From assembly GCA_030428385.1 (NCBI GenBank), contig JAUIDY010000023.1:1-59937 (forward strand): a stretch of DNA of 59,937 nucleotides, in the 5' to 3' direction. The position numbers and the translations under genes were made by a program. The notes below the pieces were generated by a model. That model was not told where the DNA came from. It did not search any database and worked only from the letters and a program-made list of their open reading frames with translations. This DNA is from Rhodothermia bacterium (lineage in GTDB: Bacteria; Bacteroidota; Rhodothermia; Rhodothermales; JAAAOL01). Positions 50,967 through 54,784 of the stretch are shown here, piece by piece; positions within the stretch are counted from its first letter, which is position 1; each line of letters opens with the position of its first letter.

Positions 50967-53033
50967 ATGCCACGAGGCCCCTCCTTTGCAAAGAACATCA
51001 AAGTTGCACTTGGTGTGGTTGTAGCGGCAGCGCTCGGGTTTGCAACAAACCTCATCAAGCTGGAACACCTTCCTGTCGGTGTACAAGGTTTTGTAGAATC
51101 CAGTCCTGTCTTAACGTTCTTTCTACTCCTTGTTTTTGCCGTGCTCCTCACCGTGGCCACACACGTGCTTCCAGACACGAATCGGGGAGAAACGGAAACA
51201 ACCATTGAATTCACTTCGCCATTACGGACTGACCTTCTCCGTGTGCTAAGAAGCCGTTACGCGCACCGACTTGGAGATTCCCTAGAGCATGAAGTGCGGC
51301 TTCAGCTTGGATTAAAGGATTCACCTGGCGTATTGGCGTATGATCCCAACCTGCGCCTCATCGGAAATCAGGAAGACCGCCCGGTGCCACCTAGCACGTC
51401 TATCCATCGCCTTTTTGAGGAAGCCGGAGGACGACTACTCATTCTAGGAGCGCCCGGGGCGGGAAAGACGACGATGGCCTTAGAGTTAGCAAAGGTCCTT
51501 GTTGAGAAGGCTATAGCAAATGATCAAGAGCCGGTGCCTGTGGTCGTCAACCTCGCATCGTGGGCAGAGCACGCTGGGCCTCTGCGAGCGTGGCTCGTAG
51601 AAGCCTTGCAAGAGGATGCAAACGTGAATGTAGATCTGGCGCGAACACTCGCTCAAGGTAACCGACTTTTGCTCTTGTTGGACGGTTTGGACGAAATCGA
51701 GGCTTCCAAACGGGCTCCGTGCATTGATGCGATTAATGCGTTTTTGAAAGAGCGGGCAGAGCAAATTGTGGTGACCTGTCGCACGAAAGAGTATCAAGCG
51801 TGCGAAAAAAAGCTCGCGCTGGCCAAGGCTATTCAAATTGCCCCCCTTGCACCGAAACAAGTCTTCCGTGCACTCAAGAGGGTGCCGGGTTCGAGTGGAC
51901 TTCAGAAAATGCTTCGCGAAGATGCTTTACTGGGCGAACTGGCAACAACACCGCTCATGTTAAGCGTCATGCTCTTGACCTATAAGGGAGAAACGGCCGT
52001 CAGGGTGCAAGCAGAAACTGTGGAGGTGCGCCGCCAAGCTTTATGGGACGACTATGTCACGCGCATGATCACCCGTCGCCCAACAGCGTACGCACCAAAA
52101 AATATCTTGAAGTGGTTGCATTGGCTGGCAAAGAACATGCGCCAAGATGACATGACGCTTTTTGTACCAGATCGTATGCAGCCAACATGGTTAACCCGAC
52201 AAAATGTATACAAATGGATGATTCCCATTTGCGTTGCATTGATCTATGGGCTGGTCTTTGGGCTGATCATGTCGCTGATCGGCAAGTTTGTCTTTGGACT
52301 CGTTAGTGGGCTGGTCTTTGGTTTTATCTATGGGAATGCGAAAGACAGCTCGTCCATTCATTTGGAAGAAGAAGTAATCTGGTCCTGGCGATTCTCGACG
52401 GTCCAGTGGAAGAAAAAAATACGCTTCGGGCTTTTCGCCGGTATAGTCACCGGGCTGGTCTTTGGAGTAAGCTGGGGGCTAGGTTCCGGGCTGATCTATG
52501 GAAAGATCCTTGGGGTCAGCTTCGGTATTTCTATCGGCCTGCTCTATGGGTTAATCTTTCCTCTCATAGAGGCAAGCAGGACTACGGCAAAGGTCGATAA
52601 AACACGAACCCTCGGCGAACGTCTGAAAGCATCACACCAGAATGGTTGGGTCTATGCACAGATTGTCGGTTGGAGCAGTGCGCTGATCTTTGGGTTGATG
52701 GGTTGGACCGTTTTTAATGATATAGGCTTCGTGCTGAGCGCGGGGCTTATGTGGGGCTTGTTCTGGGGGCTAACCAGTGGGCTATCAGAAAAGGGAGGAG
52801 GAGAAGCGTTAAAATTTGATGTCCTACGGTGGCTTCTTGTCCGTGAAGGTGCTATACCCTGGCACTATTTCCGTTTCCTTCGCACCGTTTCAGATCTATT
52901 GATGCTACATCAGGTCGGCGGCGCTGTACAATTCCGCCATTTGCTCCTCCGGGACTATTTCGCTGATTTGACTCCAGCGCACATTGATGAACTTGCCGTT
53001 CGTATACCCCAAGCATCCCGCAACAAACTCTGA
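50967..53033 (+). CDS. Membrane NACHT-family STAND ATPase
   Basis: The 688-aa protein has two N-terminal membrane helices (~12-27, ~48-66), then a NACHT-type ATPase. Walker A is GAPGAGKTT at 161-169 and the extended Walker B is LLLLLDGLDEIE at 234-245 with the acidic DE characteristic of NACHT. The VVTCRTKEY sensor comes next, followed by a winged-helix-like LATTPLMLSVMLL segment. From ~410 on it has repeats of glycine-spaced membrane helices (YGLVFGLIMSLIGKFVFGLVSGLVFGFIYG and similar), and the tail has VQFRHLLLRDYFADL. Base composition is lower in GC than the neighbours. Bacterial NACHT proteins include anti-phage systems; a membrane-damaging or signalling role here is only inferred. Confidence 0.85.
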   Translation: MPRGPSFAKNIKVALGVVVAAALGFATNLIKLEHLPVGVQGFVESSPVLTFFLLLVFAVLLTVATHVLPDTNRGETETTIEFTSPLRTDLLRVLRSRYAHRLGDSLEHEVRLQLGLKDSPGVLAYDPNLRLIGNQEDRPVPPSTSIHRLFEEAGGRLLILGAPGAGKTTMALELAKVLVEKAIANDQEPVPVVVNLASWAEHAGPLRAWLVEALQEDANVNVDLARTLAQGNRLLLLLDGLDEIEASKRAPCIDAINAFLKERAEQIVVTCRTKEYQACEKKLALAKAIQIAPLAPKQVFRALKRVPGSSGLQKMLREDALLGELATTPLMLSVMLLTYKGETAVRVQAETVEVRRQALWDDYVTRMITRRPTAYAPKNILKWLHWLAKNMRQDDMTLFVPDRMQPTWLTRQNVYKWMIPICVALIYGLVFGLIMSLIGKFVFGLVSGLVFGFIYGNAKDSSSIHLEEEVIWSWRFSTVQWKKKIRFGLFAGIVTGLVFGVSWGLGSGLIYGKILGVSFGISIGLLYGLIFPLIEASRTTAKVDKTRTLGERLKASHQNGWVYAQIVGWSSALIFGLMGWTVFNDIGFVLSAGLMWGLFWGLTSGLSEKGGGEALKFDVLRWLLVREGAIPWHYFRFLRTVSDLLMLHQVGGAVQFRHLLLRDYFADLTPAHIDELAVRIPQASRNKL

Positions 53034-53428
53034 CTGCGGAAGCAACACCTCTTAGATTAAGCCCTCCTTCCGATAGTCTCCAAAGCGATTGCAGGTTTTA
53101 CGATCTCCGAAAAAAGGGCCGGGATTCGTGATCCACCCCGTCGTTTTTCGCTTTCTCCTGCTGGTCTTGTCTCTTCAGATTGCGTCTTGTGATCACCCGC
53201 GACTTCCTCATGCGCCAGATTTACCAGATGGCGCAGGCATTGGCAAAGATCCTGTTCAGAGAACGGGCCTCGCCGACGTAAGCCCGCTGCTCATGTTTAA
53301 GCTTTGATATTTCTTTACCCTGAGTCGGCATTTTCCCCACACACAAACCGCGTATTACATGTCACCGATTATCAGGCAACACAGCGTTCTTTCAGATGGC
53401 AGCTTCTCATCAAAAAAGAGGCAACGCT
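53034..53428. other. 395-base gap containing a truncated DUF6483 gene copy
   Basis: Apart from the fossil fragment at 53189-53281, no gene or clear terminator is seen between the NACHT gene and the FN3-like gene. An open frame at 53089-53307 reads a lipoprotein-like start but runs into the fossil in another frame and is not accepted. Confidence 0.5.
53189..53281 (+). pseudogene. Truncated duplicate of the DUF6483 gene 5' end
   Basis: In frame from GTG 53189 it reads ITRDFLMRQIYQMAQALAKILF and then RERASPT stop. The first 22 residues after the start are identical to those of the intact gene at 54371. At the DNA level about 77 bases (53187-53264) match 54368-54446 with only a few substitutions. 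It breaks off into unrelated sequence, so it is a recent partial copy, unlikely to make a functional product. Confidence 0.85.
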
Positions 53429-54268
53429 ATGAACGCGCAAGACCTAAGGCTTCCGCCGGTACCCCACCTCCTTTTTCCCCGTGACGAAGCCGTTTTGAAT
53501 GGGGCCGACGTGACCTTTTCGTGGGAATCACTCCCGGATGTAGAAACCTACCGCCTCGAAGTGGCCCGCGATCCGGGCTTCGAAACCTGTCTGTTTTACC
53601 AAACCCTTATGGATGGAACGTCGGTTCGGGTGATCGACACGTTCCCGACTGATGGTACCACGCTGTACTGGCGCGTCATCGTCGAAAAGGGAGCCGGACG
53701 CTGGGGTGAGGACACCATCGAAAGCTTCCTCGCCGGAGCCGCAGCAGATGTCGGTCAGCACGCCCTGCGCCCCAACCACTACGAACGACTGGGACCACTC
53801 GCCGAGCTTATGACCGGTGGCGCCGATGATGTCATGTATCTTCATAGCCATGACCCACATCCCCCCGAACACCTCCTCGGCGAAGGCATCACGAATCCAG
53901 AAACGTTTTACACCGCCGAAGATGAAGTGGGTGTCGCTCACGAAAGGGTCGAGTTTCGGCAGGTATTAAAAGTCGTCTTCAGCATCGTCGGTGCGCTGGC
54001 CCTTGCAATCGCGGTCGTCTTTGTACGGTTTCAGGTACGCCTGCACGACGAGCAGTTGCAAAAGGTAGATGCGGCCAACTATGTGGAACTGCGTGAGGTG
54101 GAAGCAGCTGCCGCTGCTAAACTCAACCATTACGCTGTCCTCGATGCCGAACAACAGATCTACCAGATTCCCATTGAACGTGCCATGGAGCTCGTTGTCA
54201 AAGACGCGCATGCTGCTGATACACCCTCCTTAGAGCACGGACCTGCCCCCTTGCCGATACCAGAGTGA
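53429..54268 (+). CDS. FN3-like domain membrane protein with ACIII/oxidase-type C-terminal motif
   Basis: The 279-aa protein has an N-terminal fibronectin-III-like beta domain (LFPRDEAVLNGADVTFSWESLPDVETYRLEVARD to DGTTLYWRVIVEKGAGRWG, ~15-105). A linker with HSHDPHPPEH comes next, then one membrane helix (VLKVVFSIVGALALAIAVVFV, ~185-205) and a tail reading LNHYAVLDAEQQIYQIPIERAMELV. The tail pattern (L-x-x-Y-x-x-x-D-x-x-x-x-x-x-I-P-I-x-R-A-M) resembles small proteins found with alternative complex III or oxidase clusters, recalled from memory. GAGG 7 bases before ATG 53429 supports this start. Confidence 0.6.
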   Translation: MNAQDLRLPPVPHLLFPRDEAVLNGADVTFSWESLPDVETYRLEVARDPGFETCLFYQTLMDGTSVRVIDTFPTDGTTLYWRVIVEKGAGRWGEDTIESFLAGAAADVGQHALRPNHYERLGPLAELMTGGADDVMYLHSHDPHPPEHLLGEGITNPETFYTAEDEVGVAHERVEFRQVLKVVFSIVGALALAIAVVFVRFQVRLHDEQLQKVDAANYVELREVEAAAAAKLNHYAVLDAEQQIYQIPIERAMELVVKDAHAADTPSLEHGPAPLPIPE

Positions 54269-54370: not shown

Positions 54371-54784
54371 ATGATCACCCGCGATTTCCTCATGCGCCAG
54401 ATTTACCAGATGGCGCAGGCGTTGGCAAAGATCCTGTTCAAGAAACAGACGCAGCAGTACGACGCCGTGCAAGACCTGCTGGAGAAAACGTTTACGGACG
54501 TCACTGGCTTCACCCTCGACGAGATCCGCCGCCTGAGCCAGGCTGAACTGCTGGACTTGTGCGACTGGAACGGTGGCATCCACAGCGAAAAAGCCCTTGC
54601 CCTCGCCGACTTGCTGATTGAAGACGCCGAGATGCAGGATCATTTGCAGCACGAAGAAGCCGCCTACGCCAGCCGCGAGCGGGCGCTGTGGCTGTACGAA
54701 GCCGCATTTGCGTCGGGCGGGACGGTGCCACTGGACATCCACGTTCGCCTCACCAACCTCCGGGCCTTACTCACCGCTTCCTGA
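54371..54784 (+). CDS. DUF6483-family small helical protein
   Basis: The 137-aa product begins MITRDFLMRQIYQMAQALAK and continues with helices rich in charged residues (YDAVQDLLEKTFTDVTGF, LDEIRRLSQAELLDLC, ALALADLLIEDAEMQ, LWLYEAAF). It resembles the DUF6483 group of short Bacteroidota/Firmicutes proteins whose role is unknown. The 5' end exists as a second, truncated copy at 53189. It overlaps none of its neighbours, and the cupin gene starts 1 base after its stop, so they are co-transcribed. Confidence 0.65.
   Translation: MITRDFLMRQIYQMAQALAKILFKKQTQQYDAVQDLLEKTFTDVTGFTLDEIRRLSQAELLDLCDWNGGIHSEKALALADLLIEDAEMQDHLQHEEAAYASRERALWLYEAAFASGGTVPLDIHVRLTNLRALLTAS

Follow-up and report, generated by a model that had tools for sequence, protein, structure and literature searches.

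Within the window (the whole stretch of DNA analysed, 59,937 nucleotides from a Rhodothermia bacterium), a single gene encodes a NACHT-type ATPase whose winged-helix domain (WHD) is, in all probability, split by a membrane insert of about 200 residues. The contiguous WHD expected of an NLR-like NBD-HD1-WHD core is absent from this protein, hereafter the window protein, the insert lying between its two predicted halves. By its motifs and Pfam score the protein is a member of the NACHT clade of STAND NTPases, and it is very likely to act as an NLR-type nucleotide switch. The same build is common to dozens of proteins in three phyla and is therefore not peculiar to the window.

The NACHT core and the predicted split of the winged-helix domain

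The Pfam NACHT model matched the window protein with 47.6 bits (E=2.2e-12) against a curated cut-off of 26.7, and the Walker A residues, sensor-1 R272, HD1 P329 and H658 are invariant across all 40 aligned homologues (Table 1). The complete NACHT ATPase core reported in the first-pass annotation was thereby upheld, as was the view that this is a NACHT/STAND switch of the bacterial-immunity kind. PADLOC returned weak P-loop matches only, from a database that gives no curated cut-off, and matches to NCBIfam models, again to the P-loop only, fell far below cut-off. Hydrophobic sequence of low complexity can mislead such searches, and this point, which carries no weight, is all that speaks for an ordinary membrane protein matching an ATPase by chance. 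We give that reading practically no probability, as motif invariance in 40 sequences rules it out, and the Pfam score, profile matches to PDB entries, fold match to NLRC4 and colinear profile alignment described below all speak against it.

In animal NLRs the WHD contains the motif FxHxxxQEhxA, whose histidine contacts ADP, and replacement of NLRC4 His443 by leucine results in constitutive activation (PMC7583971). The window protein carries F656-R-H658-LLL-RD-Y-F-A666, and nearly all full relatives end in a motif resembling xLLxxVGGxYxFxHRxLLEYFA. Just 22 residues (667-688) follow it, and a Pfam search of the window protein found no repeat domain of the C-terminal sensor type (LRR, TPR, WD40) beyond the WHD.

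Assignment of the last ~60 residues to the second half of the WHD is based on a tail alignment, spacing, profile colinearity and model superposition. When a profile of 40 relatives was searched against the PDB, NLRC4 was the top match, and the tail of the profile aligned with NLRC4 residues 437-453, including His443, a match that is weak by itself; the window protein searched as a single sequence gave no PDB match. In clear cases of ordinary NACHT proteins FxH follows the HD1 proline after 121-129 residues (104 in one), as against 261-574 residues (median 337.5, n=34) in the split-WHD family, where 3-10 hydrophobic segments lie between the two; a value of 59 for locus L087 was a false pattern match and was set aside. 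Profile-profile alignment with ordinary NACHT proteins was broken in two at the membrane block (score 257.5) and became one colinear alignment (score 283) once the block was removed. Finally, residues 82-675 of the AlphaFold monomer model (pLDDT 83.9, pTM 0.78) matched ADP-bound NLRC4 (4kxf, chain residues 93-460) with Z 15.9 and rmsd 5.5 over 331 residues, and a model of a TIR-bearing relative (pLDDT 79.9, pTM 0.73) gave Z 16.0. Both models superpose on ADP-bound NLRC4/NOD2 from the pre-NACHT helices through the whole WHD (Z about 15-17, ~320-330 residues), with the membrane helices forming an excursion outside the matched core. The first-pass annotation had described a C-terminal membrane field and a protein with membrane at both ends; both descriptions need correction, given that ~60 residues completing the WHD come after the field and that the large membrane part sits inside the switch domain.

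Avs proteins are much larger and possess a C-terminal TPR sensor. They have the STAND ATPase architecture in common with the window protein (fold match to Avs4, 8dgf_B, Z 11.6, NTPase region only), which, unlike them, ends at the WHD and has no part corresponding to the TPR domain. NLRC4, NLRP3 and NOD2 share with it the NBD-HD1-WHD order, the predicted fold and the WHD histidine motif (PMC7583971); unlike these animal NLRs it lacks both LRR and HD2 beyond the WHD, its WHD is interrupted, and identity is 12-16%. The anti-phage proteins bNACHT25/32 are likewise single bacterial proteins with a central NACHT domain, flanked by an N-terminal nuclease and a C-terminal NCH1 domain (PMC12169576), whereas the window protein has no Pfam C-terminal domain and has a membrane insert inside the WHD.

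Table 1. Coordinates in the window, strand and supporting evidence for the NACHT gene and the features of its product
Feature	Residues	Position	Strand	Evidence
NACHT/STAND membrane ATPase gene	688 aa	50967..53033	+	ORF call, Pfam
Two-helix membrane hairpin, proposed output module	5-66	50979..51164	+	Hydrophobicity, AlphaFold (pLDDT 50-67)
Pre-NACHT helices, common to family	84-109	51216..51293	+	Alignment, AlphaFold
NACHT domain	157-303	51435..51875	+	Pfam, motif invariance
Walker A, GAPGAGKT	161-168	51447-51470	+	Conserved among 40 homologues
Walker B, LLLDGLDE	236-243	within 51435..51875	+	Conserved among 40 homologues
Sensor 1	R272	51780-51782	+	Invariant in 40/40
HD1 proline	P329	51951..51953	+	Invariant in 40/40
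Predicted WHD, first part	377-411	52095..52199	+	AlphaFold, fold match, profile alignment
Predicted membrane insert interrupting WHD; six helices as three hairpins, GLxxGL spacing	412-607	52200..52787	+	AlphaFold, glycine statistics, profile alignment, loop charges
Predicted WHD, second part; wing hairpin and FxHxxxRDYFA motif	608-666	52788..52964	+	Alignment, PDB profile match, AlphaFold, fold match
Histidine of WHD motif	His658	52938-52940	+	Invariant in 40/40

The membrane insert and the N-terminal modules

The insert contains four over-threshold hydrophobic stretches between residues 421 and 590, and both AlphaFold models (window protein and TIR-bearing relative) resolve it into six long helices arranged as three hairpins. 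Two cytosol-side loops of the window protein contain 6 K/R each and three short turns contain 0-1 each; this charge pattern, together with the even number of crossings, places the NACHT domain in the cytosol, an arrangement required for the two WHD halves to meet. The direct membrane coupling of a NACHT switch proposed in the first-pass annotation agrees with this layout. The glycine-spaced GLxxGL pattern it had pointed out is also above chance: across residues 412-626, 17 pairs of glycines are spaced at lag 4 where 4.6 would be expected (z=6.8), further excess occurs at lags 8 (z=6.3) and 12 (z=3.6), and lags that are not multiples of four lie at or below expectation. A second family member in the source genome (L008:7339-9345, minus strand, at the end of contig C90) has a far longer GLxxGL array, in which 75 of 323 residues are glycine (lag-4 z=11.5); the contig ends inside this gene, perhaps because of the repeats.

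At the N-terminus of the window protein, the two hydrophobic helices (11-29 and 47-65) agree with the membrane helices expected there, and AlphaFold places helices at 5-31 and 37-66 with low confidence. Among relatives this end of the protein is exchanged: it is a TIR domain in L028, L036 and L058, a CHAT domain in L016, L033 and L037, a protein kinase in L022, BTAD in L053, HTH in L094, several membrane helices in L032, L035, L051 and L052, a two-helix hairpin resembling that of the window protein in, for example, L025, L029, L042, L044, L046, L054 and L103, and next to nothing in some, such as L026, L027 and L102. With classes assigned by hand, at least 23 changes of N-terminal class are needed on the NACHT tree. 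A same-order relative (L133:8267-11263, minus strand) has an apparent Ser/Thr kinase (HRDIKPANIM motif) ahead of NACHT and insert.

In STAND proteins the N-terminal slot usually holds the output. Given this, and as the N-termini are swapped while the insert stays, we regard the N-terminus by analogy as probably the output module and the insert as probably the shared input or anchor; any membrane-damaging part of the window protein is then likely to be the N-terminal hairpin rather than the insert. ATP-driven opening of the membrane, as first suggested, survives as one reading only, for the swapped N-termini and constant insert point to the latter as input or anchor. The insert could instead be the effector: its glycine-zipper hairpins would rearrange or oligomerise to form a pore, with sensors, regulators or adaptors in the N-terminal position. 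Glycine at every fourth residue does resemble the glycine zippers of membrane-depolarising proteins, the G-x3-G spacing of glycine-zipper membrane-disrupting proteins being present in these helices; the insert is also big, its length varies greatly, and relatives nearly devoid of an N-terminal module (L026, L027, L102) would otherwise have no output. We nonetheless consider an effector insert unlikely, as STAND outputs are usually N-terminal and TIR, CHAT or kinase domains in that position would be superfluous.

Distribution, transfer and genomic context

Scanning the genome collection with the window protein as the only query sequence returned no relatives, and an alignment was therefore used as query. 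This yielded at least 80 loci, the best of which are full-length relatives; among the matches listed, hosts were mostly Cyanobacteria, Chloroflexota and Actinomycetota. Full-length relatives occur on plasmids of Nostoc, Tolypothrix and Acaryochloris, and weaker ones in Streptomyces. One cyanobacterial plasmid product annotated as a NACHT domain-containing protein (WP_104902303.1) is a full-length homologue with about 32% identity and the same split-WHD layout, its N-terminus being a short soluble stretch where the window protein has a membrane hairpin. A tblastn search of the phage collection found no match to the window protein; viral contigs contained 14 loci with relatives, two of them full-length. 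On one such contig (L103:5644-7668) the relative has a distal-tail/tail-protein pair on one side and a central tail fibre J gene on the other, and on another (L102) a tail-fibre-like gene is close by.

Within the source phylum, split-WHD members were found in 7 of 394 genomes, or 6 of 393 when the source genome is left aside (profile, E<=1e-30), which is far from universal conservation at one locus. A NACHT domain of any kind was present in 4 of 21 genomes searched, the source genome included. On the NACHT-domain tree, where 32 of 62 forks are open and which was used solely for this purpose, members from the source phylum are scattered, save three of one family. GC content across the gene is 0.50-0.53, compared with about 0.60-0.66 for most flanking kilobases and about 0.55-0.66 for most of the window, the lower value having been noticed at first pass. 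Low GC, rarity and scatter in the tree fit horizontal transfer, and the patchy occurrence and tree placement suggest, in line with the initial proposal, that the gene was horizontally acquired.

The gene is solitary, with a divergent TetR/efflux operon on its upstream side and unrelated genes on the other. No defence island surrounds it, the sole recognised match in the window being to the candidate model PDC-S03. Just downstream, a 69-bp direct repeat (53190-53258 and 54372-54440, 97% identical) duplicates the start of a DUF6483 gene and is likely the scar of a recent rearrangement, by insertion or recombination. At 53396-54268 lies a gene for an unknown 290-residue protein with one hydrophobic segment and no Pfam match, relatives of which occur in about half of near genomes.

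Most relatives are also solitary, and their neighbourhoods yielded no conserved partner gene. On Nostoc and Tolypothrix plasmids a pentapeptide-repeat gene, possibly a partner, lies 9-46 bp upstream (L012:2520-4775, L017:5424-7724, L021:2421-4769), and in L019 the relative sits between EAD1 genes. Both arrangements would suit an insert that is a mere anchor, the trigger being soluble or a partner protein such as these pentapeptide-repeat proteins. We rate such a role as rather improbable: solitary members predominate, six helices far exceed what tethering needs, and a tether would oddly be spliced into the nucleotide-sensing lid instead of being placed at an end.

Elsewhere, a CHAT-NACHT-membrane fusion on a Nostoc plasmid (L016:1125-4755) lies directly downstream of a trypco2-family gene, and in genome G018 two NACHT genes, one split-WHD and one other, stand ~7 kb apart on contig C14 (93 kb and 100 kb; L010), possibly forming a defence locus. 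The 71 proteins flanking relatives include AbiEi, AriA-like, MADS-like and others; this set has no matched control, and enrichment of defence neighbours is thus not claimed. CHAT, TIR, EAD1, trypco2 and host range are shared with the EAD/CHAT/TIR conflict systems of multicellular bacteria (PMC7159879, PMC8195603), and the portions of these two reports covered here describe no membrane bundle inside a NACHT WHD.

A role of the family in phage defence is, in our judgement, somewhat favoured. The members could alternatively be membrane-stress or developmental regulators of bacteria with a complex life style, acting through DNA-binding, kinase or protease outputs; many hosts are indeed filamentous or complex, and the BTAD, HTH and kinase N-termini are of this type, DNA-binding N-termini being as suitable for a regulator as for a killer. 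The patchy distribution, carriage on plasmids and phages, and TIR and CHAT modules better fit conflict systems, which leaves the regulator reading with a rather low probability.

Proposed mechanism and significance

The trigger, oligomerisation, membrane damage and anti-phage role that we infer for the window protein would combine as follows. The resting protein would be in a closed state, its ADP held by the WHD residue His658, and the WHD itself would be joined directly to a bundle in which glycines pack three transmembrane hairpins together. Should the membrane change, as when phage DNA enters, a holin or pore forms or depolarisation sets in, or should a ligand bind the bundle, the WHD would move and ADP would be released. 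NACHT cores would then take up ATP and assemble within the membrane plane, bringing their N-terminal modules together. In the window protein the gathered two-helix hairpins would make the membrane leaky or depolarise it; in relatives the gathered output would be a TIR, CHAT, kinase or DNA-binding domain, and the biological role would be defence of the abortive-infection type. In its general form, a membrane-embedded NLR-like switch, we hold this explanation to be about evenly balanced between right and wrong, and every step exactly as written is less likely; that the insert senses membrane state has roughly an even chance. The broadest version, a class of bacterial NLRs that senses membrane state directly via a WHD built around a glycine-zipper bundle and couples one core to exchangeable anti-phage outputs (TIR, CHAT, kinase, transcription, membrane hairpin), is offered tentatively and is more likely wrong than right.

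The window gene is not new in itself, since databases already list such sequences as NACHT domain-containing proteins. It is one member of a split-WHD family that appears undescribed in the literature searched, where no account of a NACHT WHD enclosing a membrane bundle was found; the bNACHT clade survey and older STAND surveys were outside its scope, and priority is not established. NLR switches are usually pictured as soluble, with a sensor hung after the WHD, and here the sensor slot is apparently spliced into the lid and in the membrane. If true, this would link NLR activation directly and physically to membrane disturbance, a question debated for animal inflammasomes too, and the family would offer a simple test system in one protein with one point mutation (His658), its outputs exchangeable and its input constant.
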